This document shows positions 11,234 to 60,268 of a stretch of DNA of 64,000 nt, piece by piece. Source of the stretch: Cytophaga hutchinsonii ATCC 33406 (GTDB lineage Bacteria; Bacteroidota; Bacteroidia; Cytophagales; Cytophagaceae); NCBI RefSeq assembly GCF_000014145.1, contig NC_008255.1, forward strand, positions 869,501 through 933,500, written 5' to 3'. The translations under genes and the position numbers were made by a program. The notes under the pieces were generated by a model, which was given only the letters and a program-made list of their open reading frames with translations, had not been told where the DNA came from and made no database searches. Every line of letters starts with the position of its first letter. The first letter of the stretch is position 1.

Positions 11234-12112
11234 CTAATAAAAATTATAGCCGCCGTTAAGTTCAACAGAGTCGGTCCAGGCCGGAAGTTTTGTAAAAAAA
11301 GGTGTATTGTATACAAAAGAAAGTAAGATGCTTTCTTTACCAATATGAATGTTTGTAGATACAACGAAACTGAAATTTTTATTATAGCGGTAGCAGCCGC
11401 CAAAAGAAATTGTTTCCTTATATTCCAGCATGCTGTAAATATTCAGATCATCATCATAGGTAGGCAAGGCCCGCCACAGCATGCCTGATTTCAGCTTTAT
11501 AAAAGGAGACAGATCAGCATGGTAAGAAAGATACGTGTTGTAATAACGCCGGTATATGATTGGCGCAACCACCGGATTTACTTCGGAGTTTAACAGCTGG
11601 CACACAGAAAATCCGGCTTCAAAATTTTTTACCTGCAAACTTAATCCGATCGATGCATCCGGTGAAATTGAGTTGCCGTTTGCCGTTGAAGACGGAGCTG
11701 TAAAGGCTGTCTGCGCAAAGCCAAAAGCGGCCCCGGCCGCAATATTCACCTGTTTACTTAATGCAATTTTATATCCGTAATTTATGTACGCTCTGGGACG
11801 GTGAATATACGGGCCATCTTTTTCATTGTAAAAATAGATTCGGATTAAATGATTGGTAGGTTTGGTGTGATTAAATACGCGTGTAAACGCAACATTAAAG
11901 GTCGATATCTTGTTTAATGCTCCAGTACGGCTCTTGTACGAAAGACTTAGATTAACCTTTACATCTTTGGGGAAATAAGAAGGTGTAACCAGATGCATGT
12001 TATTGAAATAAGCGCCGAATTGATCCGGATATACAGCAGTATTCTGCCCTGTTACAGGCAGATAGAATAACATGCTGCTTAAACCCAAACAAACAAGGCG
12101 AATCAAAGTCAT
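11234..12112 (-). CDS. PorP/SprF-family outer-membrane protein (cassette 1)
   Basis: A 292-residue protein with a signal peptide (MTLIRLVCLGLSSMLFYLPVTGQ) and then alternating strand pattern to the C-terminal aromatic (LNGGYNFY), as expected of an outer-membrane barrel. The early YPDQFGAYFNNMHLVTPSYF matches the N-terminal pattern of PorP/SprF proteins, which usually read YxxNPAFAG there; the NPA is degenerate here. The family is associated with T9SS and with surface attachment of proteins carrying type B tails. It is transcribed away from the sigma factor gene across an 87-bp gap, and a paralogue at 59363-60268 has the same position in cassette 2. Confidence 0.8.
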   Translation of the reverse strand: MTLIRLVCLGLSSMLFYLPVTGQNTAVYPDQFGAYFNNMHLVTPSYFPKDVKVNLSLSYKSRTGALNKISTFNVAFTRVFNHTKPTNHLIRIYFYNEKDGPYIHRPRAYINYGYKIALSKQVNIAAGAAFGFAQTAFTAPSSTANGNSISPDASIGLSLQVKNFEAGFSVCQLLNSEVNPVVAPIIYRRYYNTYLSYHADLSPFIKLKSGMLWRALPTYDDDLNIYSMLEYKETISFGGCYRYNKNFSFVVSTNIHIGKESILLSFVYNTPFFTKLPAWTDSVELNGGYNFY

Positions 12113-12199
12113 GAAAATACGGTCGGTTTCTTCAAAAATATATTAATTTATTTAAATTTCGTTACTTATTTATTTTGCAAATGTATATTAATTCAAGGA
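12113..12199. promoter_or_regulatory. Divergent promoter region of cassette 1
   Basis: The AT-rich 87-bp gap between PorP/SprF (-) and the sigma operon (+) must hold both promoters. Towards sigma, TATTTTGC at 12171-12178 is one base from the Bacteroidota -7 consensus TAnnTTTG, and GTTACT lies at 12161-12166. The same hexamer occurs in the equivalent gap of cassette 2. Promoter assignment is inference. Confidence 0.35.
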
Positions 12200-12778
12200 G
12201 TGAGTATTAAAGAAGAAGATATAGTCTCCCTGATTAATAAGGGAAAGGACCGGGAGGTTGTACCGCTATTGTATAAGAAGGTATACCCCTTGGTTGAACG
12301 CTATATTGTACGTAATTCCGGCAAGAAGGACGATGCGCAGGATGTCTTTCAGGATGCTCTTTTATTGTTTTATAAACAGATCATGCTTAAAACATATGAT
12401 CAGAAATACAAAGTGTTTGGTTACCTGTATAAGATCTGTATTTATAAATGGGTGAATAAGGCAAAGAAGAACAGTAAAATTGTTTTTGTTGATGAAATTG
12501 AAAAGTTTGAAGAGCCTGTTTACGATGAATTTACAGAAACGTTGATTGTACATGCAGACGAAAACATCATCCGGAAGTTATTTAATCCGATAGGTGAAAA
12601 GTGCATTGAATTGTTGACCTACACTACATACTCAAGCCTGTTGTTAGAAGATATTATGATACGCATGGATTTTAATTCGGTTAGTGCTGTTAAAATGCAG
12701 CTGAAACGCTGTAAAGAAAAACTACTGAAACAAATAGATGAAAATCCTGCTTTGATCAATCAATTAAGAAGAAAATGA
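12200..12778 (+). CDS. ECF-type RNA polymerase sigma factor (cassette 1)
   Basis: A 192-residue protein started at GTG 12200, immediately after AAGGAG; there is no in-frame ATG upstream. Region 2 is recognisable by KKDDAQDVFQDALLLFYKQI (about residues 41-60) and the following FGYLYKICIYKWVNKAKK. Region 4 at the C-terminus is less canonical (SSLLLEDIMIRMDFNSVSAVKMQLKRCKEKL). It would direct RNA polymerase to a small regulon. Its TGA overlaps the ATG of the anti-sigma gene by four bases, a common sign of matched translation. It has the same length as the paralogue at 58695-59273. Confidence 0.88.
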   Translation: MSIKEEDIVSLINKGKDREVVPLLYKKVYPLVERYIVRNSGKKDDAQDVFQDALLLFYKQIMLKTYDQKYKVFGYLYKICIYKWVNKAKKNSKIVFVDEIEKFEEPVYDEFTETLIVHADENIIRKLFNPIGEKCIELLTYTTYSSLLLEDIMIRMDFNSVSAVKMQLKRCKEKLLKQIDENPALINQLRRK

Positions 12779-13869
12779 GCTTTGATGCTGAAACATATTA
12801 CAAGATTGAAGCTTATTTAAACGGAGAGCTGAACCAGGCAGATGTAACTGCTTTTGAACAGGAACTATCCGCAAATGCTGCTTTAAAAGCTGAAGTTGAA
12901 AAACACGCAATGGCTAATGCCTTGATTGTGGAACAACGTTTGCTTTCAGTAAAAAATATTCTGCAGGAAGAAAAAACAAAAGATTCCCGTTCAATAAAAA
13001 AATATTTATTACTGGCTCTGGCAGCAGTTATTATAAGTGTTGGTGTTGCTGTTTTTATACGCAGCAGTAATATATCTGAAACAAAGCAACGTGAGGCCGG
13101 GGATACAGCAAATCCGGCACAGATAAACGGACAGGAAAAAAATGCTGTAACTCCTGTAACGTCTTTAGAGCGTACCGAACAGCACACAGCTGTTTCATCG
13201 GATAATGGATTTCATAAACAGTCCATTCAGCAGATCGAGCAGCAGCGGAATCTGCTTGAACGTACGGTACATACTGTGGATACAGCAACTTCAGCTGTTC
13301 CTGAAAAAAAGATTGCGCAACCTGTTGATTCAAAAGAAAAAGAAATTATACAGCATACTACAAAGGCTGATCCGTGTGCAAACGTAAAAATTCAGGCACT
13401 GATAAAAACGACCCCTACCTGTGCACATACCGCCAACGGTAATATTCTGGTTCAGAATATTCAAGGCGGAACAAAACCATATACGGTAACTTTTTCAGCA
13501 AAGTCAACAGACTGGATCCGGAATGGCGAACTGGCGAAAGGGACGTATCAGGCCGTTGTAACAGACGCAAATAATTGTGTTCAGGAGTTTTCAAACATCC
13601 GCATTGAAGAAAAGGAATGTGCCATTGATTATTCATTTAATCCGTTTATAGGGGAGAAATGGCAGATTGATAAGTACCATTCAGACGGGCATCTGGAAAT
13701 TTTCAATAAAGGCGGGGTGCTGTATTACCAGACCACAATAGAGTCGCAAACAGAAGCAGAATGGAATGGATCTGGTTCGGGTAATCAAATACTGCCGGGT
13801 TATTATATCTTTGTACTAAAATATTCGGACGGAACAGTCAAAAGAGGTTCTGTTACAATTGTTCAATAA
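12775..13869 (+). CDS. Transmembrane anti-sigma factor with SprB repeat and type B-like C-terminal domain (cassette 1)
   Basis: A 364-residue protein without signal peptide. Residues 1-70 form a cytoplasmic helical part beginning YKIEAYLNGELNQADVTAFE, which resembles the N-terminus of Bacteroidota anti-sigma factors. One membrane helix lies at about 77-95, followed by a Gln/Thr/Lys-rich spacer to about 200. A SprB-type repeat follows at about 204-280 (TTPTCAHTANGNILVQNIQG, then GGTKPYTVTF and GTYQAVVTDANNC). Residues 285-364 match the strand order of the CHU_C type B T9SS tail: IFNKGGVLYY, EWNGSGSGNQILPGYYIFVL, RGSVTIVQ. The TPNGDG motif of secreted tails is absent. The domain should face the periplasm. 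The stop overlaps the next ATG (TAATG). No zinc-finger motif is seen. Confidence 0.82.
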   Translation: MSFDAETYYKIEAYLNGELNQADVTAFEQELSANAALKAEVEKHAMANALIVEQRLLSVKNILQEEKTKDSRSIKKYLLLALAAVIISVGVAVFIRSSNISETKQREAGDTANPAQINGQEKNAVTPVTSLERTEQHTAVSSDNGFHKQSIQQIEQQRNLLERTVHTVDTATSAVPEKKIAQPVDSKEKEIIQHTTKADPCANVKIQALIKTTPTCAHTANGNILVQNIQGGTKPYTVTFSAKSTDWIRNGELAKGTYQAVVTDANNCVQEFSNIRIEEKECAIDYSFNPFIGEKWQIDKYHSDGHLEIFNKGGVLYYQTTIESQTEAEWNGSGSGNQILPGYYIFVLKYSDGTVKRGSVTIVQ

Positions 13870-15476
13870 TGAAAAAGGTAATCATACATATTGTATTTTT
13901 TCTGACTTCCATAACAGGATATGGGCAGCAGACAGTATCAATACCGGATGCTGCTTTTTTAGCATTTTTAAAAAACAATTTTCCACAAACCATAAATACA
14001 TCAGACCAGCTTGTGACCAGCATTGCAGCGCAGGTTACAGGAAATATTTCCTGCGGCAATTCAGGCATCACAAATCTGGAGGGAATTCAATATTTTTCTA
14101 AAGTTACCAAGATCAGTGCCATTAATAATAACATTGTTTCTATTCCGTCCTTATTGCCCATGACGAATCTTGAGACGGTGCATATTTACAATAATAAATT
14201 AGCTACAATGCCCGATTTTGCAGGCATGCAGAAATTAAAAACGGTATTGCTGTATGAAAATGAATTAACACAAATGCCCTTGTTTGGCAATAATCCCATC
14301 ATTGAAGAAATCATTATTTCAAAAAATAAATTAACCAGTCTGTCGCCCTTGTCTGTTGTGCCTTCGCTGTTAAAATTAGATGTTGGTGAAAACGCATTGA
14401 CGCAACTTCCGGATCTTTCCCTCAATGTAAATCTAGAAGAGTTAATCTGCTGGTCCAATAAACTTACCGCACTGCCATCCTTAAAAAATCTGACAAAACT
14501 GAAGCGGTTAAATGCCGGTACAAATAAATTAACCCAGACACCTGATTTGTCGGCCAATACAGCTCTTACAATCGTTGCCCTGGATAATAATTTCCTGAAG
14601 GATATACCAAATATTCTGGACTATAACTTAACAACCGTGAAGTTATACAATAACTATTTTACGTTTGAAGATTTGTATCCGTACACAACACGGGCGAATT
14701 TTTCAACTGCGTTTGATTGCACACCGATGCTGCGGATACCCATTGCAGATACAATTGATGCATATTATAGTCAGTCAGTAGATATTCATACAAACATTGA
14801 TAAAACGTTAAGTAATGTAACGTATGAATGGTTTGAAGGCAGTGCCTCTGTGGCAGTAGGTGATGCCGCGGTTATAACTTCCGCAAACGGAACGGGCGTA
14901 TCCAAACGTTACCTGTATGCTAAAATTAAACACCCATCCATTCCGAATCTCACATTAACAACGGATTCAATCCTGGTTCGCTTTAATCCGTGTCCGGTGT
15001 CAGCAGACATCACATACACTGCTTCTAAAAAAGACTGCGGCAATGCAGGAGCTGTGAACATAGACGTACACGGGTATGTTCCGCCAGAAACAACCTATAT
15101 CTTAACAAGCACATCATTTGGCTCCAACGAATATTATCAGTCGGGCAATATTACTGGCCTGGTTGATACTGCCTATCAATTACAGATTGAATTTATACCA
15201 GGCTGTGTGGTAGATTACCTGCCATTGATTGAGATGCCTTATGTAGATTGTAAAGAAGTGTTCATGACCCCGAATGGAGATGGCGACATGGATACCTATT
15301 TTATTCCCGGTTCAGGCAATGCCATTATTTATGATAAGAACGGGAGGGAAGTAAAAAAAGTAAAATTACCCTACGAATGGAATGGCTATGGCCCGAATGG
15401 ACTGGTACAGGCAGGGTATTACATCATTGTGGTAAATGGCGGCAAAGACCGGATCTACATCAGTGTACTGTATTGA
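13869..15476 (+). CDS. Leucine-rich-repeat surface protein with type B (CHU_C) T9SS tail (cassette 1)
   Basis: A 535-residue protein with a signal peptide (MKKVIIHIVFFLTSITGYGQQ). A block of about nine leucine-rich repeats runs from about residue 55 to 280, with periodic LxxLxxxxNxLTxLP text. An Ig-like stretch follows (about 305-375, YEWFEGSASVAVGDAAVI) and then a Cys-containing beta domain. Residues about 460-535 are a type B sorting domain: FMTPNGDGDMDTYFIP, IIYDKNGREV, EWNGYGPNGLVQAGYYIIVV. It should be exported by T9SS and held on the surface, probably through PorP/SprF. It is the last gene of the sigma/anti-sigma operon, overlapping by one base, and its paralogue is at 55953-57584. Confidence 0.85.
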   Translation: MKKVIIHIVFFLTSITGYGQQTVSIPDAAFLAFLKNNFPQTINTSDQLVTSIAAQVTGNISCGNSGITNLEGIQYFSKVTKISAINNNIVSIPSLLPMTNLETVHIYNNKLATMPDFAGMQKLKTVLLYENELTQMPLFGNNPIIEEIIISKNKLTSLSPLSVVPSLLKLDVGENALTQLPDLSLNVNLEELICWSNKLTALPSLKNLTKLKRLNAGTNKLTQTPDLSANTALTIVALDNNFLKDIPNILDYNLTTVKLYNNYFTFEDLYPYTTRANFSTAFDCTPMLRIPIADTIDAYYSQSVDIHTNIDKTLSNVTYEWFEGSASVAVGDAAVITSANGTGVSKRYLYAKIKHPSIPNLTLTTDSILVRFNPCPVSADITYTASKKDCGNAGAVNIDVHGYVPPETTYILTSTSFGSNEYYQSGNITGLVDTAYQLQIEFIPGCVVDYLPLIEMPYVDCKEVFMTPNGDGDMDTYFIPGSGNAIIYDKNGREVKKVKLPYEWNGYGPNGLVQAGYYIIVVNGGKDRIYISVLY

Positions 15477-46235: not shown

Positions 46236-46271
46236 CATTTGTTTGTCATATTATTGTATGACAAACAAATG
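46236..46271. promoter_or_regulatory. Probable operator: perfect 15-bp inverted repeat
   Basis: Arms 46236-46250 (CATTTGTTTGTCATA) and 46257-46271 are perfect complements around a 6-base spacer. The right arm ends on the ATG of the divergent gene, and the element lies upstream of the XRE gene: the position and symmetry expected of a dimeric repressor site. A further TGTCATA half-site occurs at 46212-46218. Confidence 0.6.
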
Positions 46272-46673
46272 AATGCTATGGATATGGAAACTAACAATAC
46301 AAAATCAATAAAAGATGAAGTAATAACACTTCTTTTGGCAGATATGAAAAGCCGAAGGCTACTTATGGGCCTTGAATCTACGGGACTTGTTACAGATGAT
46401 TATAATTCAAATCTGGTAGATCTTATTTTTTATAAGCTGGATGTATCCAAACAGCATGAAACCAATATGTGGAACTGGTATGAAGATACGATCTATACCT
46501 TGCTTGAAATCGATATGCATTATTTCCGGGTGCATCAGGAATTTTTAGCCCATAAACTCTATGACGCCATTATGGAGAAGAAAAATCAACTTGTCAATAA
46601 ATTACCCGATACCTTAAGCACGGATTTTTATGCCGTATTATCGTGGTTGAAATTGAATAAATATAATAATTGA
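46269..46673 (+). CDS. Hypothetical protein divergent from the XRE regulator
   Basis: A 134-residue protein if begun at ATG 46269 (MNAMDMETNNTKSIKDEVIT); Met codons at 46278 and 46284 are also possible, and the 46269 ATG lies inside the inverted-repeat operator. The protein is helical, acidic and soluble (LLLADMKSRRLLMGLESTGL, WNWYEDTIYTLLEIDMHYF). No family is recognised. Its position suggests control by the XRE protein; a toxin-antitoxin-like or orphan regulatory pair is possible but unproven. Confidence 0.55.
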   Translation: MNAMDMETNNTKSIKDEVITLLLADMKSRRLLMGLESTGLVTDDYNSNLVDLIFYKLDVSKQHETNMWNWYEDTIYTLLEIDMHYFRVHQEFLAHKLYDAIMEKKNQLVNKLPDTLSTDFYAVLSWLKLNKYNN

Positions 46674-47002
46674 CGGCGGAGATGTGATTTGCAACTATAT
46701 AAATAATATGATAGTTGTCATTCTATTTATTCCATTAAAAAGAATTATTATTGATTTTTTACCTCAGTTAGTGTGCTTGTTTAAATATAATTATTCCGGT
46801 GTAGGTTTTTTGATAAAAAGATTTGATATTGGCACTGTCAGTTGATTTGAAGGGAAATACATTTATTTTAATGAAACCCGTATTGTTTTTATCACAGAGC
46901 TCATTTAGAAGCATAATCATTTAAATTCATAAATGAGTTGTTGTTAAGTGAAGGACATATATTTTGTATAAGCTTTTTTACAACGTTTACAATATTTTAG
47001 GT
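46674..47002. other. Intergenic region upstream of the nuclease gene
   Basis: 329 bp of strongly AT-rich sequence with no reading frame or strong hairpin recognised. It presumably holds the promoter of the 47.0-50.7 kb gene set. Confidence 0.4.
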
Positions 47003-47533
47003 ATGGGAGGAAATGCAGGAATCAGAGGTTATTTAATACAAACGATTATTTGTGTATTAGATACGTTTGAAACTGATAATCTATGGAGATCAGTAACGCT
47101 CGAGCCGTTAGACGAATCGGAAAAGGTAGACATCAGGTGGAAATATGTCGATGATGCTGTAAAACTGTGTCAAGTAAAATCCTCCGAAAACATAATTCGG
47201 CATTCTGCAGCAAAAAAATGGTGTGAAGAACTTGAAACTCATTCTCCAAATGCATCTGAATATGAATTAATTGTAATTGGAAATGTTGACGAAAAACTCT
47301 CAACGGCTAAGGATATTGGTAATGTAAAAATTGGAGAAATTAAACCTTTGAATGTTCAAGTTTTAATTGATCAAGCATCGACAAAAATCGACAAATACTA
47401 TGAAAATAAGAACAAGCCGAGGATTTCATCGCAGGTTAGAGAACTTATTGTAAAAGCATTAACCTTGGAATTTGGCACAAGTTCATCATTGGAAAAGAAA
47501 TATCTAGGGCGGATTTTGACACAAAACTTTTAG
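47003..47533 (+). CDS. PD-(D/E)XK nuclease domain protein (Cap4/DUF4297-like), N-terminal part
   Basis: Starting at ATG 47003 (MGGNAGIRGYLIQTIICVLDTF) the frame ends after 176 residues. The pattern G-x-x-G-Y-x-x-Q at the start, then VTLEPLDESEKVDIRWKY and KLCQVKSS near residues 31-62 gives the Glu...Asp...Gln-x-Lys arrangement of dsDNA nuclease domains of the Cap4/DUF4297 type. After about residue 155 the natural continuation lies in the -1 frame, which is open from 47440 to 49689 and reads GKEISRADFDTKLLEWISAVEN just before this frame's stop. The gene is therefore probably the front of one large protein interrupted by a frameshift. It is very AT-rich, suggesting transfer. Confidence 0.65.
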   Translation: MGGNAGIRGYLIQTIICVLDTFETDNLWRSVTLEPLDESEKVDIRWKYVDDAVKLCQVKSSENIIRHSAAKKWCEELETHSPNASEYELIVIGNVDEKLSTAKDIGNVKIGEIKPLNVQVLIDQASTKIDKYYENKNKPRISSQVRELIVKALTLEFGTSSSLEKKYLGRILTQNF

Positions 47534-47787
47534 AATGGATTAGTGCAGTTGAAAATCAAATTGACACCAACCCTTTTGCTTCTTTAGCTCCACCAACGGA
47601 AAGTCAAAACGTTCCTATTAATCACAGGATAGTTAAGAAAATATTAGAACTTATCGGTTGGCATCAGTTTGGAGAAAATCATACAATAGAGCGCTTCAAC
47701 GAAAAAACAGAAGGAAATGAAATACATTCTGTCAATTTTCTCGGAGATTTTGAAAGTAAACTAAAAGAAGATTCAGGAGATTTAATA

Positions 47788-49689
47788 ATGATTTCGTCAC
47801 TTCATTCACTTAAATATCCTGAATCTTCTAAAATAGAAATATCTAAATACTTAAACGATACCGACATTGTATATTCAGACTTGGAAGAAAAGAAGAAAAT
47901 TCCAGTAAAACGATTTGAATCTACTGATGTTTACAGCCTTTTATTTTGGCTTTCAACTAATAACAGTGAGGTTTTAACAGATTTTATTCACTATACAAAA
48001 GAAAACTATAAACGGAATTTACTGAAAGAAGATATCAACTATTTTCTGATAGATAACAATAAAGCCAATTTTTTAATTAGCAGTATTACAACTGCAAAAA
48101 ATTATAGATCAGACGTTCCTGTTAAGTTTGCATATCCCATAACTGAAGCCAATCAAAGCCCTAAACGCATTGGAGAAAGAGGGTTAAAGCTTCCTCCTCA
48201 ATTTATTAATTCCTCTGTACTTCCTATCACTAAGGAAAGTAAATCTAAAATAAGTTTTCTTCTTTTTTGCTCTGACCCATTTTCTGCAGAAGCATTAAAG
48301 AAACTTATTTGGCTAACAATTAGCCTTACAAGTGGTTATGGAAATGAATACCTCCTTTACTTTCCTGATTATAATGAAGAAGAAAATAAAAATGATGCTC
48401 TGGAAGTTATCCGTTCCTTTAATGAAGAATTATTAGACGAGAAGGTTAGAGTGTTAAAATACAACAGCATTGATACAGATGCATTAGATTCATTATCGAA
48501 TACAAAGGTAATCACCAGTAAAAATGAAACATACGAGGACGATAATCAGCCATCCTTAGTTAATTCTCAGCACCTAAACGAAGCTTTTGTCAATATACTT
48601 CCTTATGGAGATATTTTAAAACCTTTTCTTAAAACAGATGCAATTACAGCAAATGATATTAAATTCTTTCTTGCCAAAAAGGGGATTTTTACAAAAAAAG
48701 CAGACATCAATAAATTAATTGACTTAATGACTTCATTACTTTTTAGCCCGAAAGAACTTGAAGACTTTAAATCATACATTGATGTTAAAGGTAAAACTGT
48801 TAATAGCTCGGATGCATTTTTCAACATTAAACAAAATGAAACATTAGAATCTGTATTTAATAAAGTGAAAATAAACACAGATAATTTGACAGATGGTCTA
48901 AATGTCAAAATCATAAATTCTGATAGTTTAAAATTTGAAGCCAGTCCTTCAAAGGATGAATTCAAATTAACATTGATAACGGAAACAAAAGACCCGACAA
49001 GTAGCTTGTTGATTAATACTAAACCAGGGAAAGCAGAAGTTGTAATTAAGAAAAAGGACAATCAGTTAGTAGTAGTAACCGAAAATACAATCAATAAAGC
49101 GGACAAATATATTGTTAACCGCTTAGTAAAGCTTGTTGAGGAAGAGTTTAAAAGAATAGATTTTATTGAAGAGGAAAAAATAAAAGTACTGTTCAAGAAT
49201 TTTAGCTCAAATACAGAAAGGGTAAATTTCTTACTTAGCTTTAGTAATATATCTTCTTCTGTAATGTTTCACGAGGCGGATATTCAATCAATAAAATTCA
49301 AGTTTGATGACAATACTGAAATTCCTGAACTCTACCGTGATAAAGTTGATAAAGATTTGGTTATAAACTTTGAAGGAAAGGGGTTACAAACTCTTACTGA
49401 ATTAAGTGAGCAAAATGCAAAGGGTTCTATTTTTTTAGAAGAAATGAAAGTATTGTATAAATTCCGTTTTTTAAATATAAAAAATGGCTTGTATAAGGTT
49501 ACTTTCAATTTTTCAAATGCACTTAAAAACAAACCTGAATTTGACGGAGTATTCAAATCCGCTCCATATTTGATAAAAACAAATTCCGTAAAATCTCTAT
49601 CAAGTATTGAAAATCTTGAAAAGGAATTAGGAAAGGAAATTGAGAATCTTAAACTTGAAAAGTTGAAATTATTTAATATAATAAAATGA
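47788..49689 (+). CDS. Large protein, probable C-terminal part of the nuclease gene; GAPS4b-like domain possible
   Basis: From ATG 47788 the protein is 633 residues, but the same frame is open from 47440 without a good start, adding about 116 codons (LLEWISAVENQIDTNPFASL and on), so the true product is probably continuous with the upstream nuclease domain. Around residues 265-325 the text ILPYGDILKPFLKTDAITAN...LAKKGIFTKK...LLFSPKELEDFKSY resembles, from memory, the N-terminal domain of GAPS4b from a phage-defence system; this needs a profile search. The C-terminal half is beta-rich with a helical end (ENLEKELGKEIENLKLEK). Its TGA overlaps the next ATG by four bases. Confidence 0.55.
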   Translation: MISSLHSLKYPESSKIEISKYLNDTDIVYSDLEEKKKIPVKRFESTDVYSLLFWLSTNNSEVLTDFIHYTKENYKRNLLKEDINYFLIDNNKANFLISSITTAKNYRSDVPVKFAYPITEANQSPKRIGERGLKLPPQFINSSVLPITKESKSKISFLLFCSDPFSAEALKKLIWLTISLTSGYGNEYLLYFPDYNEEENKNDALEVIRSFNEELLDEKVRVLKYNSIDTDALDSLSNTKVITSKNETYEDDNQPSLVNSQHLNEAFVNILPYGDILKPFLKTDAITANDIKFFLAKKGIFTKKADINKLIDLMTSLLFSPKELEDFKSYIDVKGKTVNSSDAFFNIKQNETLESVFNKVKINTDNLTDGLNVKIINSDSLKFEASPSKDEFKLTLITETKDPTSSLLINTKPGKAEVVIKKKDNQLVVVTENTINKADKYIVNRLVKLVEEEFKRIDFIEEEKIKVLFKNFSSNTERVNFLLSFSNISSSVMFHEADIQSIKFKFDDNTEIPELYRDKVDKDLVINFEGKGLQTLTELSEQNAKGSIFLEEMKVLYKFRFLNIKNGLYKVTFNFSNALKNKPEFDGVFKSAPYLIKTNSVKSLSSIENLEKELGKEIENLKLEKLKLFNIIK

Positions 49690-50714
49690 TCGATTTTACT
49701 GAAATAACGCTTGAGTTTATATACATCCATAAAGTTGGAAACAAGCTTAGGGATGAAGGAATCGAAGTATCCGATAAAAAGCTAAGTTTAGGAAACGAAG
49801 ACACAAAAAAATACTTGTTAAGGTATTTTCTTTCTCCATTCAATAATAATGAAGTTTATAATTTTCATTATCCGACAGACCTTAATCTTAACGATACCTA
49901 CGCTTTTGCTAAAAGGATTTTTGCAAATCCAGAAAATTTCTATGAATTATCAATAGATGTTTCAAAGCATTTATATGAAAAATCTTCTCACCCCAAAATA
50001 AACGGAGGAGAGTTTTGTATTTGTTATTTTAAAGATTGTTTATTTGAGGGGCAACAAACTGATGCAATAGGCTTATTTAAGTCTGAAAAAAAGGACGTTT
50101 TTTTAAAACTCACTTCTTCAAAAATCGCACATGAAAGTGGAGTTAATATTGATAAATTAGACAAAGGATGTTTAATCTTCAATTTAGAAGAAAAAAACGG
50201 CTATAAAGTATGTGTAGTGGATTCAAATAAATCAAACGACACACAATATTGGAAAGATGAATTTTTAAGTATAAAACCTGCTAGTGACAATTATCATTTT
50301 ACTAAAGATTTTCTTTCCATAACTAAGAACTTTATTACAAAACAAATTCCTGAAGACTTTGAGGTATCTAAAGCAGACCAAATAGACTTCTTAAACCGTT
50401 CAGTCGATTATTTCAAAAAACATGACACTTTTGATAAGCAAGAATTTGAATCAGAGGTTTTTGCAGACAGCAATGTTATTAAATCATTTCGCAAATTTGA
50501 CCAAATATATAGACAAGAAAACGAAGTAGAGCTTTCAGACAATTTTGAAATATCTGCTCAAGCAGTCAAAAAGCAAGCGAGAGTTTTCAAAAATATTTTA
50601 AAGCTCGACAAAAACTTTCACATATACATTCATGGAAATAGAGAACTAATAGAACAAGGAATTGACGAAAAAGGACGTAAATATTATAAAATATATTACG
50701 AAAATGAAACTTAA
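49686..50714 (+). CDS. Nucleoid-associated protein, NdpA/YejK (NA37) family
   Basis: A 342-residue protein. FIYIHKVGNKLRDEGIEVSDKKLSL at the start, YFLSPFNNNEVYNFHYPTDLNLNDTY near residues 46-71, and GEFCICYFKDCLFEGQQTDAIGLFKSEKKDVFLKL near 110-145 match the conserved blocks of the 37-kDa nucleoid-associated protein family. YejK-like proteins bind the nucleoid, but distant members are found in mobile and defence-type loci. The ATGA overlap with the preceding gene says the two are made together, pointing to joint action with the nuclease-like protein. Confidence 0.78.
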   Translation: MIDFTEITLEFIYIHKVGNKLRDEGIEVSDKKLSLGNEDTKKYLLRYFLSPFNNNEVYNFHYPTDLNLNDTYAFAKRIFANPENFYELSIDVSKHLYEKSSHPKINGGEFCICYFKDCLFEGQQTDAIGLFKSEKKDVFLKLTSSKIAHESGVNIDKLDKGCLIFNLEEKNGYKVCVVDSNKSNDTQYWKDEFLSIKPASDNYHFTKDFLSITKNFITKQIPEDFEVSKADQIDFLNRSVDYFKKHDTFDKQEFESEVFADSNVIKSFRKFDQIYRQENEVELSDNFEISAQAVKKQARVFKNILKLDKNFHIYIHGNRELIEQGIDEKGRKYYKIYYENET

Positions 50715-50724
50715 CTCAGTCTCA

Positions 50725-50767
50725 GAATTTGCAATTCCAAAGCCAAATAAAAAACGATTTACAATCC
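50725..50767. repeat. REP-like hairpin doublet, copy 2
   Basis: GAATTTGCAATTC and GATTTACAATC, each an imperfect palindrome, lie on either side of the linker CAAAGCCAAATAAAAAAC. The arrangement matches 42489-42543. Confidence 0.55.
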
Positions 50768-50820
50768 CTTATAATAATTCTGATCTCAGCATGTCTTCTG
50801 GGAAAATTAAATAATTATAA

Positions 50821-51462
50821 ATGACATTTGACACAAATACAATCACAGCATTTCTTACAGGTTCGGTTGTAACATTGATTATAAGAGAGATTTTTAATCA
50901 AATAAATAGAAAGGTTGACTTTAATAGAGATTTAAAGAAAATAACTTATCAGCGGAAATTAGAGAAGGCCGAAAGTGCAGTTGCTTACTATTGGACGTAT
51001 CTCAACAAGGCAATTGAAATGAAAAAGTCTATGGAGACAATTCATAAGGCTCTGAATGAAATTGATGAAACAAAATTAGACATTAGAATTATAACAGAAA
51101 CCCTAAACAAAAATAGTAAAACACTCGATCTCTTATCTGGTGACAAATATTTTGACATTAACGGGATTCACTTGTATTTCGATTTAGAAGATGAAAAATC
51201 CTGGAGTGAGGAAGACCTTGGTAAACTATGCGATTGCCTTGCAGAAATGAATTATCGGGGTAATGATGTTGAATTTTGGACATCATTATACAACTCTCAT
51301 TTAGACAGCAACGAGCAGTTAGCAGACCAGTATTGGAGTAAAATGAAAGAATTTTTACCCGATTACTTGAATTCACTTCAAAAATTTATTGATCTCTTAG
51401 AGAAGAACAGACAAGCGACATATTTAATTTTTAAGAAAATAAAAAAACAGATTGAAAATTAG
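50821..51462 (+). CDS. Hypothetical protein with N-terminal hydrophobic helix and coiled coil
   Basis: A 213-residue protein. A short hydrophobic segment at about 9-25 (ITAFLTGSVVTLIIREIF) could be a membrane anchor, and the rest is helical with coiled-coil text (KLEKAESAVAYYWTYLNKAI, MKKSMETIHKALNEIDETK) and a basic C-terminal end (LIFKKIKKQIEN). No family is recognised. It lies about 105 bp downstream of the nucleoid-associated gene behind a REP-like element, so it may or may not belong to the same unit. Confidence 0.55.
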   Translation: MTFDTNTITAFLTGSVVTLIIREIFNQINRKVDFNRDLKKITYQRKLEKAESAVAYYWTYLNKAIEMKKSMETIHKALNEIDETKLDIRIITETLNKNSKTLDLLSGDKYFDINGIHLYFDLEDEKSWSEEDLGKLCDCLAEMNYRGNDVEFWTSLYNSHLDSNEQLADQYWSKMKEFLPDYLNSLQKFIDLLEKNRQATYLIFKKIKKQIEN

Positions 51463-51489
51463 AGCTAAGAGTCAAGACTTCCCCTCTTC

Positions 51490-51530
51490 GGAATTTTAAT
51501 TACTAAACCAGATAGTGAGATTTATAATTT
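51490..51530. repeat. Degenerate REP-like doublet, copy 3
   Basis: GGAATTTTAATTAC and GAGATTTATAATTT, separated by TAAACCAGATAGT, keep the order of the two better copies but have lost most of the palindromy. The preceding CTCTTCGGAATTT is shared with copy 1. Confidence 0.4.
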
Positions 51531-51564
51531 ATTTATTGAAAACAGATCTGAAAACTATTACTAA

Positions 51565-52059
51565 ATGAACATTGAAATAACATATAAATGTAAAAATAAT
51601 ACCCTAACTACATCATTTGAATTGACTTCCCAACAATACTATGAAACAATTGAAGAAGGAGAAAATTATGAAGATGATTGTATTCCTAAATATGATCAAA
51701 CGATGGATTATATTATAGCTTTTGACTCTACAGTAACAGAAGAACTGTTAGAGTATTCCATATTGAAAATTCAAAATTCTATAAAATCCAATAAAAATAT
51801 CACGACAACATATTTTGGAAATGAATCTCAGCTAATCCATTCAATAAGTGATACTGGATGGGAACTCATTATTCAATCAATTAGAATTGCGGAGAATTGT
51901 ATTGCTATTACAAGAATGGAACGCGCTGATTCAAAAAGCAGCTGGACAAATATTAGTTACTCAACTGGATTAAACTATAAGAATGAACAATCTGGAAAAG
52001 AAATCTGGTACTCGGCCGGTAAAGGCGAATACATAAGAAAGGATATCATATCAGATTGA
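51565..52059 (+). CDS. Hypothetical soluble protein
   Basis: A 164-residue acidic protein (MNIEITYKCKNNTLTTSFEL). It has no signal peptide, membrane helix or known motif. The pattern alternates short strands and helices (YYETIEEGENYEDDCIPKYD, LLEYSILKIQNSIKSNKN) and ends in a beta-like stretch with aromatic residues (KEIWYSAGKGEYIRK). It is AT-rich like its neighbours. Its only context is that it stands alone between repeat elements in the accessory region. Confidence 0.5.
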   Translation: MNIEITYKCKNNTLTTSFELTSQQYYETIEEGENYEDDCIPKYDQTMDYIIAFDSTVTEELLEYSILKIQNSIKSNKNITTTYFGNESQLIHSISDTGWELIIQSIRIAENCIAITRMERADSKSSWTNISYSTGLNYKNEQSGKEIWYSAGKGEYIRKDIISD

Positions 52060-52155
52060 AACTATTAGAAAACTTTGTTCCGCAAGTTTATACATTTCAT
52101 GCTTACAATTTAAGATGAATTTAGAAACCATAAGCCTGAAGGCTTACATATCAAA

Positions 52156-52240
52156 GCTTAGCTGGCTGTTGGCCTCTGGCACCACAGCAGGTTAAAGCAG
52201 ATGTGAAGTGAAACATTACAATTACAAACAAGATTAAAAT
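52156..52240. repeat. Hairpin repeat between single-gene units, copy 1
   Basis: It contains GGCTGTTGGCCTCTGGCACC followed by ACAGCAGGTTAAAGCAG. This aligns with copy 2 at 52865-52925, and the two ends can form an imperfect stem. It follows one gene and precedes the next in the same orientation, as integron attC sites do, but the core boxes do not fit cleanly. Confidence 0.5.
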
Positions 52241-52245
52241 ACATA

Positions 52246-52800
52246 ATGAACGAAAAAATTAAAGCATTCAGCAAGTCTGCAACTTTGCCTTTGTTACGAG
52301 TTTCAGAAACGGGAGTAAAAGAATTTTATCAATTTGAAATTGATTGCTTCGAAATGAAGGATTACAATTTCATAAATGTTTTGAAAGAAGGTGACTTTGC
52401 TCACCTTTTTGATAAGGTGGTAAATATATGTGGGCCATGCTTATATTATTTTGAAATTGAATCAGATCATACCGCCGATGATATTGTTTCTAGAATACAA
52501 AATTATAAATTAATACCTGGAGCTAAATCTGTGCCAGCTATTAAAAAGAAAATACCCCAAAGCAAAGTGTTATATGTAGGTAAAGTTAAAAAAGGATTAT
52601 GGGGAAGATTGGTTCAACATTTAGGTTATTACAAGGTTTCAAGAACTCAAGGCCTTCAACTTTTTTACTGGACACAGGGCACGAATATGAAATTAAAAAT
52701 GCATGTTCTTGAATTTGAAAATGAAATGGCCGATTACATGAGTGTTCTGGAAATAAAGTTAGCAAAGGACTTAAATCCGATTTTAGGTAAACACGATTAA
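52246..52800 (+). CDS. GIY-YIG-like nuclease domain protein
   Basis: A 184-residue protein. GPCLYYFEIE near residues 64-73 (first strand), KVLYVGKVKKGLWGRLVQHLGYY near 107-130 with the conserved Tyr-Val-Gly and Arg, and MSVLEIKLAKDLNPILGKHD at the end with the catalytic-type Glu and the NPxxG turn give the order of the GIY-YIG endonuclease fold. The GIY tripeptide itself is replaced by the CLYYF strand. It probably cuts or binds DNA; the target is unknown. It lies between two copies of the hairpin repeat, like a stand-alone cassette. Confidence 0.65.
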   Translation: MNEKIKAFSKSATLPLLRVSETGVKEFYQFEIDCFEMKDYNFINVLKEGDFAHLFDKVVNICGPCLYYFEIESDHTADDIVSRIQNYKLIPGAKSVPAIKKKIPQSKVLYVGKVKKGLWGRLVQHLGYYKVSRTQGLQLFYWTQGTNMKLKMHVLEFENEMADYMSVLEIKLAKDLNPILGKHD

Positions 52801-55952: not shown

Positions 55953-57584
55953 TTATCGAACTACTGTAATGTTCGTTATTTTTTTATTGTTTACGATAAT
56001 CACATAATAGCCGGCATCTGCTAATGTGCCGTCAGCCTTGGTGCCATACCATACAGCCGGTGCCGTCAATTGCAGGATTGTTTTACCTCCCATATCAACA
56101 ATTTTAGCCGGACCGCTCTGTTCAATAAAATAAGAATTCATATGCGCATCTCCGTTTGGCGTAATAACCGGATCGCACGCTTTTGGTTTTGGAATGGTCT
56201 GTACAGAATCTATACCGCAGTTGTTGGCATCGCGCACCGTAAAGGTATATTTGCCCGGAGGCACCTGTGTAAAATCTCCTGTAGAGCTGCGTATGGTATC
56301 GGTATTGTAAAACGGAATTAATGCGTAGGTGTACGGTGCCGTACCGCCATTCAATACAACAGCTGTTTCCACGGTTGCCCCGCCACTGCACTCGTTTGAG
56401 GAGACATCAAATGAGAATGCATTCAGATCAATACAGTCCGTTACCTCTATGTTCCAGATTCTATGCGTTAAGGTTAATAAAGGCAAGTTCGGATTTTTAA
56501 TACTTACATAATATTTCCCTTTGTCGGTAACCTGCGTTTTATTTATAGAGAACGCCCGTGTTGTTATGCCTGAAAGCGCTGCATTTTTATACCAGGTATA
56601 GGTGTTGCTGCTTACGCCGGCATCTTCGGTAATGGATAAAGAAAGCGGTTGCTGTGAACGAATTGTATTCTGTGTGTAGGTGCCGAGGCTGTCCTGCGGA
56701 CTGTAGCTGAAATCTGTCAGTGTTGTTACCGTTTTTAAAGGCAGCAGATCTTCAAAGGTTAAATTATTTTTTTCAACTTCAACACTGTTGAGGTTAGGTT
56801 TGTTTGTTAAAGTTGGTAACGAACGGAGTTTGTTTGAAAAAGCAAACAGGCCGGTTAATGTTGTGTTGTCAGATAATGCTGAAAGATCAGTTATTGAATT
56901 TTCCCAGCAATATAATTTAGTAAGTTTTGTTAATTGGGCCAGGCCCGTGATCTGTGAAATATTTGTCTGGTGTACGTGCAGTTCAAGCAGCTGTACATTT
57001 GGAGAGAAGTCCGGTAAGCTTGTAAATGGATTATTCCCGATGATCAGATACTTTAAATTCACAAGTGTTGAAATATTCGGTAAGCTGGTGAGTTTATTAT
57101 TTGTAAGGAAAAGATTATTCAGGTTTACCAGATTGGTAAGAGAAGGCAAACTGGTAAGAGCATTTGTTGTAGCCTGTATCTCAACCAGATTTGTTTGATT
57201 GCTTAAGTCGGGCAATTGAGTAAGCCTGTTAAAGTTTACATACAGGTATTTCAATTGTGTGAGGGACGATATATTCGGAAGTGCCGTTAAATTGTTAAAG
57301 GACGCATCTATCTTGAATACAGAAGTGAAATATTGAATGCCATCTAAATTTGAAATGTTTGCACCTGTCAGAATGAGATCATTGGTAAACATACCGGCAG
57401 CAGTAATATTTAACTGGTTGCCTGTCATAACCCATGGATAACTGGATTGTAATTTGTTTTTGAAATTAACATCCTGAATCACATAGGTTCCCTGCGCAGA
57501 AGCAACCGTTATGGATATAAGCATCACCAGAATGCTTGCCAGCAGGCGTGACCGTAAGGATAATATGTTTGAAATTGTTTTCAA
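55953..57584 (-). CDS. Leucine-rich-repeat surface protein with type B T9SS tail (cassette 2)
   Basis: About 543 residues. No ATG is available: TTG at 57584, two bases after the anti-sigma stop, gives MKTISNILSLRSRLLASILVMLISITVASAQ, a good signal peptide; TTG at 57596, overlapping the anti-sigma gene by 11 bases, is the alternative. About ten leucine-rich repeats run from residue about 60 to 290 (LKYLYVNFNRLTQLPDLSNQ and similar). An Ig-like stretch and a SprB-like repeat (NECSGGATVETAVVLNGGTAP) follow, and the type B tail is CDPVITPNGDAHMNSYFIEQ through AGYYVIIVNNKKITNITVVR. Like its cassette 1 paralogue it should be surface-exposed. Confidence 0.83.
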   Translation of the reverse strand: MKTISNILSLRSRLLASILVMLISITVASAQGTYVIQDVNFKNKLQSSYPWVMTGNQLNITAAGMFTNDLILTGANISNLDGIQYFTSVFKIDASFNNLTALPNISSLTQLKYLYVNFNRLTQLPDLSNQTNLVEIQATTNALTSLPSLTNLVNLNNLFLTNNKLTSLPNISTLVNLKYLIIGNNPFTSLPDFSPNVQLLELHVHQTNISQITGLAQLTKLTKLYCWENSITDLSALSDNTTLTGLFAFSNKLRSLPTLTNKPNLNSVEVEKNNLTFEDLLPLKTVTTLTDFSYSPQDSLGTYTQNTIRSQQPLSLSITEDAGVSSNTYTWYKNAALSGITTRAFSINKTQVTDKGKYYVSIKNPNLPLLTLTHRIWNIEVTDCIDLNAFSFDVSSNECSGGATVETAVVLNGGTAPYTYALIPFYNTDTIRSSTGDFTQVPPGKYTFTVRDANNCGIDSVQTIPKPKACDPVITPNGDAHMNSYFIEQSGPAKIVDMGGKTILQLTAPAVWYGTKADGTLADAGYYVIIVNNKKITNITVVR

Positions 57585-57585
57585 T

Positions 57586-58698
57586 TTAGCGTACAATAGT
57601 TATTTGTCCGTTTTCTTTTTCTCCTGAAGTATATTCAAGGATATAAATATACAAACCTGCTGTTAAATATTCACCTTGCTGGCTTAATCCCTGCCATTCA
57701 AAGCTTCCTTCCATGGTATTTGTTTTATATACCTGTTTGCCGGCCATATTTAAGATAGTTAATACATAGCTCTCATCCTCTTTAGCGGTGATGGTGCAGA
57801 CCTGTCCTTTATCCGGCGCAAACACATAAGAAGTTTTGCGGCAGTTTTTTTCCGTTACTTCAGAAGAGAAGTTTTTTGTACAGCCGTTGGCGTCTGTAAT
57901 GTTAATGTTATAAGTGCCTGCCGGTAAATAGGCATAATGCTCTTTAGTGCCCGCATCTGTTGATTTATTAAAGGAGATTTTATAAGGCTTGGTACCACCG
58001 CTGATTTGATTGATCGGAATGGTGATACTTCCATTGCTTGCATCGTCACAGCTTGGACTTGAAGTGATAACTGCTTTAAGGGTTATCTGATCGCACGGAT
58101 TAACCGCATCGGTTGTTTTTGAAACCGGTGTATGTGCGATTGTTTCAGCAGGTTTTATAACGGGAATTTGTGTAAAGGTATGGTCCGTTGTGCTTTTTTC
58201 TAGTGGTGTCTGAAGGGAAATTTTTTCATCAGGCGATGCCGTTCGTACATCTGTTTGTGTGTGCAGCTGGTTTGTTTTTTCCGTTGTTGCCGGCTGTGTT
58301 ATTTTTTCACTGGCAGCAGACTGTTCCGCTGGCTTGTTTTTTATTACCGAAGGTGTTTGCAGGGCAGGTGCAGTTACGGATGTTGTATCTTCCTCTGTCG
58401 AAAGCGTATACATACCTACTACACCGATACTTACAATACCCAAAATAAGGCCTGTTAATCCCCAGGTACGCGTGTTTTTTGAAGCATCTATGTCTGCTAT
58501 ATCATTACTCATCTGGTTTCTGAGCGCATCGAAAGTAGCGCCGACAACAACCTCATTTGTGAGCTGTACAAAAGACACTTCTTCAGCTAAAGAAGAATCT
58601 GTTTGAAGTCGCTGCTCAAAAGCAGCGAGCTCTTCTCCCGTCAACGTTCCGTTGAGATAGTTGTCAATTAACTGATATGTCTCTAATTCAGGTCTCAA
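57586..58698 (-). CDS. Transmembrane anti-sigma factor with SprB repeat and type B-like C-terminal domain (cassette 2)
   Basis: A 370-residue protein with the same architecture as the cassette 1 protein. The cytoplasmic start is LETYQLIDNYLNGTLTGEELAAFEQRL. One membrane helix lies at about 79-99 (WGLTGLILGIVSIGVVGMYT), followed by a Thr/Gln/Pro/Lys-rich spacer to about 200. A SprB-type repeat spans about 210-285 (SSPSCDDASNGSITIPINQI, GGTKPYKISF, GTYNINITDANGC). The C-terminal domain at about 288-370 reads TILNMAGKQVYKT, FEWQGLSQQGEYLTAGLYIY and GQITIVR. As in the paralogue, TPNGDG is absent. The start overlaps the sigma gene by four bases. Confidence 0.82.
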   Translation of the reverse strand: MRPELETYQLIDNYLNGTLTGEELAAFEQRLQTDSSLAEEVSFVQLTNEVVVGATFDALRNQMSNDIADIDASKNTRTWGLTGLILGIVSIGVVGMYTLSTEEDTTSVTAPALQTPSVIKNKPAEQSAASEKITQPATTEKTNQLHTQTDVRTASPDEKISLQTPLEKSTTDHTFTQIPVIKPAETIAHTPVSKTTDAVNPCDQITLKAVITSSPSCDDASNGSITIPINQISGGTKPYKISFNKSTDAGTKEHYAYLPAGTYNINITDANGCTKNFSSEVTEKNCRKTSYVFAPDKGQVCTITAKEDESYVLTILNMAGKQVYKTNTMEGSFEWQGLSQQGEYLTAGLYIYILEYTSGEKENGQITIVR

Positions 58699-59273
58699 TT
58701 TCGTAATAAATCAACTAATGAAGGATTGCTTTTCACCAGTTTGGTTAAATATTGTTTGCATCTGTAATGATTCGTCTTTGCAACATCTTCGCTGCTGTAA
58801 CCCATTAACTCTTTGATTTCCTTCATCGAACGCTTTTCGTAGATCACGTAAGTTAATATATTCCGGCATTTTTCATCCAATAAATTGAATACCGTTTTCA
58901 TTGCAGCGCTTTTCTCTTTTTGTATCAATGCATCCAGGTGATTGGTGTCTGAAGCAATAACAGCGTAATCATCCGGCGAATCGTATTTGGTAAATTTTTT
59001 ATCCCGGCGGACTTTATCGATCCACAAATTCCGCGCTACGGAGTATATAAAGGCATCGATGGAATAGGCTTCATTGAATTTATTTAACCGGATCTGATTG
59101 AATAAAACAATTACCGCGTCCTGGAAAATATCGTTTGCGTCATCCTTGCTGCCATTGTTTTTAAGAATGTACTGTCTTACTTTCTTCAAACTGATGTCAT
59201 AGAGATACTCTAATGCAATATTATTTGCACCGCTGCGGATACTTTCAATGATGACTTTTTCCTTTTCGCTCAC
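58695..59273 (-). CDS. ECF-type RNA polymerase sigma factor (cassette 2)
   Basis: A 192-residue protein started at GTG 59273 (MSEKEKVIIESIRSGANNIA), the same length and start codon type as the cassette 1 factor. Region 2 reads SKDDANDIFQDAVIVLFNQI and FIYSVARNLWIDKVRRDKKF; region 4 reads RSMKEIKELMGYSSEDVAKTNHYRCKQYLTKL. It is the first gene of the sigma - anti-sigma - LRR operon and is divergent from the PorP/SprF gene. Confidence 0.9.
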   Translation of the reverse strand: MSEKEKVIIESIRSGANNIALEYLYDISLKKVRQYILKNNGSKDDANDIFQDAVIVLFNQIRLNKFNEAYSIDAFIYSVARNLWIDKVRRDKKFTKYDSPDDYAVIASDTNHLDALIQKEKSAAMKTVFNLLDEKCRNILTYVIYEKRSMKEIKELMGYSSEDVAKTNHYRCKQYLTKLVKSNPSLVDLLRN

Positions 59274-59362
59274 GACTAATTATATTTCTTACGATTTGAT
59301 GGGTAAAAGGTAAACAGTTTTTATTTTTAAAAGGCACAATTATAAAAAAATAGTAACTTGGT
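59274..59362. promoter_or_regulatory. Divergent promoter region of cassette 2
   Basis: An 89-bp AT-rich gap between sigma (-) and PorP/SprF (+), the same size as the cassette 1 gap. On the sigma strand it contains GTTACT (59352-59357), as does the cassette 1 gap, and TACCTTTT, one base from the Bacteroidota -7 consensus. Promoter assignment is inference. Confidence 0.35.
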
Positions 59363-60268
59363 GTGATTTTATTGAACAAAAATGTGAGAAGAATTACCTC
59401 GTTTGGTTTCTGTATGCTTTTTTTGATGGATTTTTCCATGCAAACCCATGCACAAACGGGAGATATTACGCCTGTTGTATTTGATCAGTTTTTTCAGAAT
59501 TATTACCTCATCAATCCCGCAAGTTCAGACAGTACCGGTAAGATACAGGTCAACATCGGAAACAGATCACTGATCGGTTTGTTTGATGGTGTAAACCGCT
59601 TGTATGTGGATGGCAATGTACGGATCAATCACCGTACCGCTATGCAGTACAGCAGACTCGGTGCCCTGGTGATTGCGTATAACGATGGTGCTTTTATTAA
59701 CAGAACGCGTGCATACCTCAGGTATTCCTGGTCAACATCCATCAGTGAACGTGCTTCCATCTCGGCAGGTATTTCAGCAGGTATGGTGAAGTATACGTTT
59801 CTTGCTTCACAGGCTGGCGGCGGCGGTTCTTCAACTTCTTTTGACGGCAATGCAGGTTTGTGGTACATACGGCCTAAATTAAAAATCGGTATATCGTATC
59901 AACAATTCACCCGTTCGGAATTGACACCCGTGAATCAAACATTTCTGCTTACTCCGTACATAAATGTAAATGCGGTCTATGCTTCTTATCTCAGTGCACA
60001 TGTATTGTTAACAACGCATGTATTCTACAGGTATGAATCAGGTTCTGTGTTTGATATACAGGCGGCACCTGTTTTTTTATTCAACGATCTGTTTGAAGCA
60101 GGTATTAATCTGCGTTACAAAAGAGGTGTTGCAATTTTATTTGGTTTGAAATCAATCCATGTCGGTACAGGAAATATCCGCTTTATGGGTTCGTTTATGT
60201 TAAGCACCCGGAAGCTGGCCAATACACTTGATAACGCATTTGAACTATCGGCAGGCTATTCGTTTTAA
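59363..60268 (+). CDS. PorP/SprF-family outer-membrane protein (cassette 2)
   Basis: A 301-residue reading from GTG 59363. TTG 59372 would give MNKNVRRITSFGFCMLFLMDFSMQTHAQ, a cleaner signal peptide. After the signal the text FDQFFQNYYLINPASSDSTGK carries the NPA motif typical of PorP/SprF proteins. The rest alternates in strand fashion to the C-terminal aromatic (LSAGYSF), as in outer-membrane barrels. The family is linked to T9SS and surface display of type B tail proteins, one of which is encoded in the divergent operon. Confidence 0.85.
   Translation: MILLNKNVRRITSFGFCMLFLMDFSMQTHAQTGDITPVVFDQFFQNYYLINPASSDSTGKIQVNIGNRSLIGLFDGVNRLYVDGNVRINHRTAMQYSRLGALVIAYNDGAFINRTRAYLRYSWSTSISERASISAGISAGMVKYTFLASQAGGGGSSTSFDGNAGLWYIRPKLKIGISYQQFTRSELTPVNQTFLLTPYINVNAVYASYLSAHVLLTTHVFYRYESGSVFDIQAAPVFLFNDLFEAGINLRYKRGVAILFGLKSIHVGTGNIRFMGSFMLSTRKLANTLDNAFELSAGYSF

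Follow-up and report, generated by a model that had tools for sequence, protein, structure and literature searches.

The ORF at 57586-58698 of Cytophaga hutchinsonii ATCC 33406 encodes an anti-sigma factor with a C-terminal tail, which is of the T9SS sorting-domain type both by sequence and by fold. This tailed membrane anti-sigma factor is inherited as one cassette with its sigma factor, a PorP/SprF-family carrier and a secreted partner, which has a homologous tail. All positions refer to the window, which is the whole stretch of 64,000 nucleotides analysed (NC_008255.1, positions 869,501 to 933,500 of the forward strand). On balance, we favour the reading in which the PorP barrel serves as the docking site of the tail within a relay from the outer membrane to the sigma factor.

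Domain organization of the anti-sigma factor

The ORF at 57586-58698 is present as reported in the preliminary description; it lies on the minus strand, starts with TTG and encodes 370 aa. The protein is a membrane-anchored anti-sigma factor, which consists of an anti-sigma domain, a hydrophobic segment, a disordered linker of about 100 residues, an SprB-like domain and a CTD. The anti-sigma domain (residues 1-75; 58474-58698, minus strand) is helical and contains an ID.YL.G.L...F motif. It matches NCBIfam NF052375 only below the threshold (E 0.0037), and a FecR domain is not matched up to E 0.1 in either anti-sigma factor of the window. The single hydrophobic (membrane) segment at residues ~80-98 (58405-58461, minus strand) is assigned by hydropathy and modelled by AlphaFold with low confidence; the median start of this segment by hydropathy is residue 80 in 62 relatives. 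An N-terminal signal peptide (Sec) is not seen in 57586-58698 by inspection, the first hydrophobic segment being located around residue 80. The low-complexity linker covers residues 99-196 (58111-58404, minus strand).

The tail is composed of two domains. The SprB-like domain (residues 197-284; 57847-58110, minus strand) contains the GGTKPY motif and Cys conserved among the anti-sigma relatives, and matches Pfam SprB with an E value of 6e-4, which is below the cut-off. The T9SS CTD-like domain (residues 285-370; 57589-57846, minus strand), in which the PNGDG loop is replaced, matches Pfam CHU_C (T9SS signal) above the cut-off (E 2.5e-9), as does the C-terminus of the second anti-sigma factor of the window at 12775-13869 (E 3e-6). 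CHU_C is located at the extreme C-terminus of both proteins, and TIGR04131 is below the cut-off. In the AlphaFold model of 57586-58698, residues 200-370 are confident, with pLDDT mostly >90, and form two beta-sandwich-type domains, the linker has pLDDT mostly <50, and the N-terminus is helical. The CTD model aligns with the PorZ CTD (Z 9.4, rmsd 2.5, 82 residues) and with the translocon-bound RemA-CTD (8gl6 chain D; Z 8.4, 75 of 76 residues). Many Ig-like or FlgD-type folds also resemble it with Z 7-9, so that the fold alone would not decide the identity of the tail as a T9SS CTD, for which the sequence match is decisive. The C-terminus of the surface protein GhpA is matched by a profile made from 37 relatives (E 5e-33) and is the only clear match of the tail in the sequence search for relatives of solved structure.

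Four-gene cassettes in the window

The cassette consists of a divergent PorP/SprF barrel, an ECF sigma factor, the tailed anti-sigma factor and a surface protein, usually an LRR protein, with its own sorting domain. At the locus of 57586-58698 (locus B), the genes for the sigma factor, anti-sigma factor and LRR protein form an operon in this order, each overlapping the next. The cognate ECF sigma factor (58695-59273, minus strand, 192 aa) matches Pfam Sigma70_r2 (E 2.6e-8) and, above the cut-off, NCBIfam sigma70-ECF; its gene overlaps that of the anti-sigma factor by 4 bases. The secreted protein of 547 aa (55953-57596, minus strand) has the arrangement LRR, Ig-like, SprB-like and CTD, and keeps an ITPNGDA loop. 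Its tail is homologous to that of the anti-sigma factor (25% over 143 aa, E 6e-7). The divergent gene (59363-60268, plus strand) encodes a PorP/SprF-family outer-membrane barrel (Pfam PorP_SprF, PF11751, E 1.6e-46), which is modelled with 14 strands at pLDDT 90.8.

The solved structure that best matches this barrel is PorV (8gl6 chain F; Z 25.9, rmsd 2.7, 261 residues), and no solved-structure relative of PorP is found by sequence. The barrel thus resembles PorV and the tail resembles the RemA-CTD, both from 8gl6, indicating that the two halves resemble the partners of a known docking pair. SprF is disulphide-bonded to GldK (PMC12635249). The PorPs of these cassettes differ from SprF in that they have no conserved Cys column, and attachment of PorP to the gliding track via a conserved Cys, as for SprF, was rejected for this reason.

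A paralogous cassette with the same gene order, cassette A, is present at 11234-15476. It encodes a PorP/SprF barrel (11234-12112, minus strand; Pfam PorP_SprF E 2.1e-45), an ECF sigma factor (12200-12778, plus strand), an anti-sigma factor with the tail (12775-13869, plus strand) and an LRR protein with a CTD that keeps TPNGDG (13869-15476, plus strand). The anti-sigma factors of this kind are not limited to two, as had been described, because the genome (4,433,218 bases, single contig) encodes five full-length paralogues. A distant anti-sigma-domain match (G000:C1:1100319-1100762, 303-aa frame) lies outside the five cassettes of this genome. Several successive ORFs at 46239-52800 of the window, among them the overlapping pair 47788-49689 and 49686-50714, are of unknown function.

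Conservation of the tail and divergence of the linker

The two anti-sigma factors of the window, 57586-58698 and 12775-13869 (P0002), are 29% identical over the full length by BLASTP (E 8e-39). Calculated with 500 shuffles, the Smith-Waterman z score between them is highest for the SprB-like domain (27.4), followed by the CTD (14.2) and the anti-sigma domain (13.9), whereas the linker, at 0.9, is at the chance level. It had been proposed that the spacers of the two proteins share little, and this holds for the linker, while the full-length alignment shows that both proteins are clearly homologous. The motifs YLNGxL, AFEQ and GGTKPY are identical in both proteins as described. The end given as W-G...AGxY.Y.L is common only in part: W-G...G.Y is kept, but AGxY.Y.L is not, because 12775-13869 has PGYYIFVL at this position. 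The membrane helix is likewise kept as hydrophobicity, but not as sequence.

Conservation of each domain was measured in 43 relatives, as had been proposed. Mean pairwise identity is 32% for the anti-sigma domain, 31% for the SprB-like domain and 33% for the CTD, and decreases to 21% for the membrane segment and 13% for the linker. The length of the linker is nevertheless kept, at 85-120 residues, or 86-130 residues when counted from the membrane segment. Among orthologues with sigma factors that are 55-90% identical, the values are 47% for the anti-sigma domain, 40% for the SprB-like domain, 50% for the CTD and 16% for the linker. Conservation of the tail equals that of the anti-sigma domain, whereas the linker does not rise above the chance level, indicating that the tail is under constraint and that the linker is spacer-like. 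The selective retention of the tail suggested earlier is thus strongly supported. When the relatives were checked for a common lack of the tail, as proposed earlier, those grouped with these proteins by their sigma factors were seen to retain the tail or, at a minimum, the SprB part of it.

Loss of the PNGDG loop in the anti-sigma tails

The PNGDG-type loop is a feature of T9SS type B sorting domains, as is also read from the partner proteins, and we take it to be one of the five motifs of the type B CTD. It is found in 44 of 59 partner CTDs, but in none of the 77 anti-sigma CTDs examined. The loss of TPNGDG, noted earlier for the two anti-sigma factors of the window, therefore extends to all of these CTDs, in which the position of the loop is taken by a conserved motif, approximately FxPxxGExWxIP. 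This pattern would fit a division of the domain, as previously suggested, in which the loop serves export and the rest of the domain serves docking. In Flavobacterium, secretion of a type B CTD requires all five conserved motifs (PMC12618676). The anti-sigma tail, having lost the loop, probably stays unexported, and the anti-sigma factor, with neither a signal peptide nor the loop, does not qualify as an ordinary T9SS substrate.

The CTD fold and the pairing with a carrier are nevertheless like those of exported proteins, the disordered linker has 86-130 residues, and the conserved Cys of the SprB-like domain suit an oxidising compartment. These features are consistent with an anti-sigma factor that is a true T9SS substrate with a tail that crosses the outer membrane: PorP would capture the CTD at the surface, the chain would thread the envelope, and surface events would pull the anti-sigma factor. 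We consider this arrangement quite unlikely, because the loop is missing in 77 of 77 CTDs, whereas type B secretion needs five motifs (PMC12618676), with the loop assumed to be among them, and because a chain that is still held in the inner membrane would plug SprA.

Association of the tail with PorP

In 19 genomes searched, all 42 family loci fetched first encode a sigma factor, a tailed anti-sigma factor and a second CTD protein, which is mostly an LRR protein. PorP is present in all of them but one (L093), where it is cut off by the contig end, and one assembly has a few split genes. In one genome (G018), the anti-sigma factors at L089, L230, L321 and L322 are frameshifted between the anti-sigma domain and the tail, probably because of sequencing indels, since PorP (L087) and a CTD protein (L230) of the same assembly are also split.

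The anti-sigma factors were sampled again without bias for the tail, using an N-terminal-only profile (first 76 residues) that was searched in the order and then in the class. The sample consists of 118 distinct sigma-linked anti-sigma factors, and PorP was scored within 4 kb. PorP is present within this distance for 92 of the 93 scorable tailed anti-sigma factors (91 and L321, in which the tail is in the next frame), and for none of the 19 scorable tail-less ones. L166 is the one scorable tailed locus without PorP within 4 kb, and four further tailed loci are too near a contig end. The association of the tail with PorP gives a Fisher p of 2.8e-19 for the uncorrected table, a value that overstates independence because the loci are related.

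A branch of the sigma tree with 98% support separates 81 tailed cassettes from 20 tail-less ones. The tailed cassettes are thus one sigma group, so that the contrast of 92 to 0 rests on few independent events. This would be expected if the SprB-CTD were a generic periplasmic Ig-like module for ligand binding or contact, fused beside a T9SS gene pair, and if the co-occurrence with PorP reflected operon descent. The resemblance of the CTD fold to many Ig-like and FlgD-type domains (Z 7-9) and the mirror-tree result given below, in which a tail-specific signal is not seen, agree with such a module. The sequence match of the tail, in contrast, is specifically to the T9SS signal family. In addition, seven loci (L157-L159, L161, L162, L237 and L320) have dropped SprB and kept the CTD and PorP, and three loci with rearranged gene order (L074, L196 and L309, of which L309 is a full cassette) keep the pair of tail and PorP. 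We consider a generic module very unlikely.

The three orthologues L227-L229 have lost the CTD, while SprB and PorP remain. At these loci, the anti-sigma factor ends after the SprB-like domain, an RCC1-repeat surface protein replaces the LRR protein, and PorP is located downstream on the same strand. A protein of a family outside the order (L310:1674-3062) contains an anti-sigma domain, two PKD domains and CHU_C with an FSPDGRG loop. PorP is not seen near this gene, over 6 kb in one direction and 1.7 kb in the other, and L310 is possibly an independent fusion. Full-length relatives outside the order are not found in the 395 genomes of the phylum sampled, with few candidates scored per genome, and the single-protein scan of genome contigs gives only one relative, from an uncultured Cytophaga.

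The tail-less anti-sigma factors bear other modules, which are by eye a trypsin-like protease, a TPR-like domain or an unnamed C-terminal domain. L231, L232, L234, L235, L236 and L244 have an apparent periplasmic trypsin/HtrA-like protease domain (GNSG) after the membrane segment, and PorP is not nearby. In other orders of the class, the anti-sigma domain heads frames of 710-974 aa (L258, L264, L266, L267, L269 and L278), and the long protein of L266 contains a cytochrome-like CxxCH motif.

Matching of the tail to its own barrel

The preliminary description raised the possibility that tails match their own barrel better than the other. When the PorPs of one genome are compared, 32 of 53 CTDs select the PorP of their own cassette, as compared with 13.0 expected, and tails do match their own barrels above expectation. 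However, the sigma factor (34 of 53) and the anti-sigma domain (33 of 53) match equally well. The SprB part of the tail has a weak partial correlation with PorP (0.22), and that of the CTD is close to zero (-0.02). Because the sigma factor matches the barrel as well as the tail does, these results indicate co-inheritance, not docking specificity. A mirror-tree analysis considered as proof of tail-barrel specificity is positive, but not above other gene pairs, and is treated as co-inheritance as well. The proposal that the anti-sigma tail is closest to the LRR tail of its own cassette was rejected, because this is the case for only 7 of 53 tails, as compared with 13 expected (p 0.89). This result gives no support for competition of the two tails at one shared specific site.

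Promoter and regulation

Most tailed cassettes contain a two-block motif, TGTTTACTTT-N10-(A/T)TCGTA or TTGTA, immediately before the start of the sigma gene, with a log-likelihood of 304 as compared with at most 42 in four shuffles. The spacing of the two blocks is that of an ECF promoter, suggesting that the sigma factor probably drives its own operon. In locus B, the ECF-like promoter upstream of the sigma gene is TGTTTACCTT-N10-AATCGTA (59290-59316, minus strand), and in cassette A a weaker ECF-like promoter, TCGTTACTTA-N10-AAATGTA, is located at 12159-12185 (plus strand). The only occurrence of the strict locus B motif in the genome is at its own promoter. A wider regulon for this promoter is not supported, because 8 sites are found with 2 mismatches as compared with 5 in the reversed control, which is no surplus. 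Several tail-less sigma operons score moderately, approximately 6 to 9, as compared with a median of 11 for the tailed ones, so that the motif may have a wider distribution in a weaker form.

A strict motif that is limited to its own operon, together with homologous SprB-CTD tails on the anti-sigma factor and the exported partner beside one carrier gene, is what would be expected if the tail sensed the state of T9SS or of the carrier and not an outside ligand. Free PorP would hold the tail, PorP loaded with the partner would free it, and the sigma factor would report the export of its cassette. This reading is unlikely, given that the two tails of one locus show no cognate similarity and that the sigma factor possibly has further targets.

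Proposed mechanism

In the docking model, which we favour on balance, the anti-sigma factor would be located in the inner membrane, and its disordered linker of about 100 residues would span the periplasm. At the outer membrane, the SprB-CTD tail would dock on the cognate PorP and thereby report to the sigma factor on the state of the barrel. As a further step, the LRR protein may be exported and anchored by the same barrel. Loading of the LRR protein, ligand binding or its removal would alter how the tail is held, upon which the anti-sigma factor would release the sigma factor, or be cleaved off, and the sigma factor would switch on its own operon. The co-occurrence of tail and PorP (92 of 93 versus 0 of 19), the loss of the loop in all 77 CTDs and the single group of tailed sigma factors argue for this model. 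Against it, the tail is matched to its cognate barrel no better than the sigma factor is, L227-L229 lack the CTD and yet keep PorP, and L166 and L310 have a CTD without PorP nearby. In addition, a tail that is tethered to the inner membrane would need to reach the binding site or use another face of the barrel. A more specific proposal is that loss of the export loop made a T9SS sorting domain a docking plug, which ties the inner-membrane anti-sigma factor to the carrier barrel, and that the cell reads in this way which surface protein the carrier holds; we put this forward only as a tentative possibility.

Comparison with known systems

Dma anti-sigma factors extend from the cytosol to the outer membrane, where they end in a fused barrel (PMC13088901). 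The anti-sigma factor of the window resembles them in its N-terminal anti-sigma domain, single membrane helix, long disordered tether and adjacent ECF sigma gene, and in a C-terminal part that would be located at the outer membrane (PMC13088901). Unlike Dma, which ends in its own beta-barrel, it ends in a T9SS-type sorting domain and is accompanied by a separate PorP/SprF gene, and its cassette includes a secreted LRR protein. Dma adjoins an ECF21 sigma factor; the adjacent sigma factor here is classified as ECF by NCBIfam, at the level of sigma70-ECF. The protein is thus not a member of Dma, because it has no barrel in its chain, but it would function as a split version of Dma, with T9SS components as its parts. 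In effect, it would be a Dma-type anti-sigma factor with a separate T9SS carrier as the barrel, bound via a sorting domain without the loop.

In two species, PorP-family barrels bind or anchor proteins with a type B CTD (PMC9143113, PMC12618676), and type A CTDs bind to the loops of PorV within the SprA pore (PMC10994853). As in SprB-SprF and PG1035-PorP (PMC9143113, PMC12618676), an SprB/CTD tail is encoded beside a 14-strand PorP-family barrel; the anti-sigma factor of the window differs in its cytoplasmic N-terminus and membrane segment, and in that it has no PNGDG loop and no evident export. FecI-FecR-FecA is similar in that it combines an ECF sigma factor, a membrane anti-sigma factor and an outer-membrane barrel, but the cassette has neither a FecR domain nor a TonB-dependent receptor, and its barrel has the FadL/PorV fold. 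In PorA/PorXY-SigP of Porphyromonas gingivalis, a T9SS CTD protein also acts on an ECF sigma pathway (PMC7712824). PorA is, however, a separate surface protein that acts via a two-component system, whereas the CTD is located here on the anti-sigma factor itself. Among open-licence papers, none was found that joins anti-sigma factors with SprB repeats or PorP/SprF, which is not proof of absence.

If the docking model is correct, Bacteroidota would gain another wiring from the outer membrane to gene expression, which is built of T9SS parts and of which a genome has up to about a dozen copies. The model is directly testable, because the tail, barrel and promoter of one cassette suffice for a reporter. 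The cassettes would provide a natural experiment on which parts of a sorting domain serve export and which serve docking. They would also help to explain the abundance of PorP-like barrels, and would give type B carriers a regulatory role.
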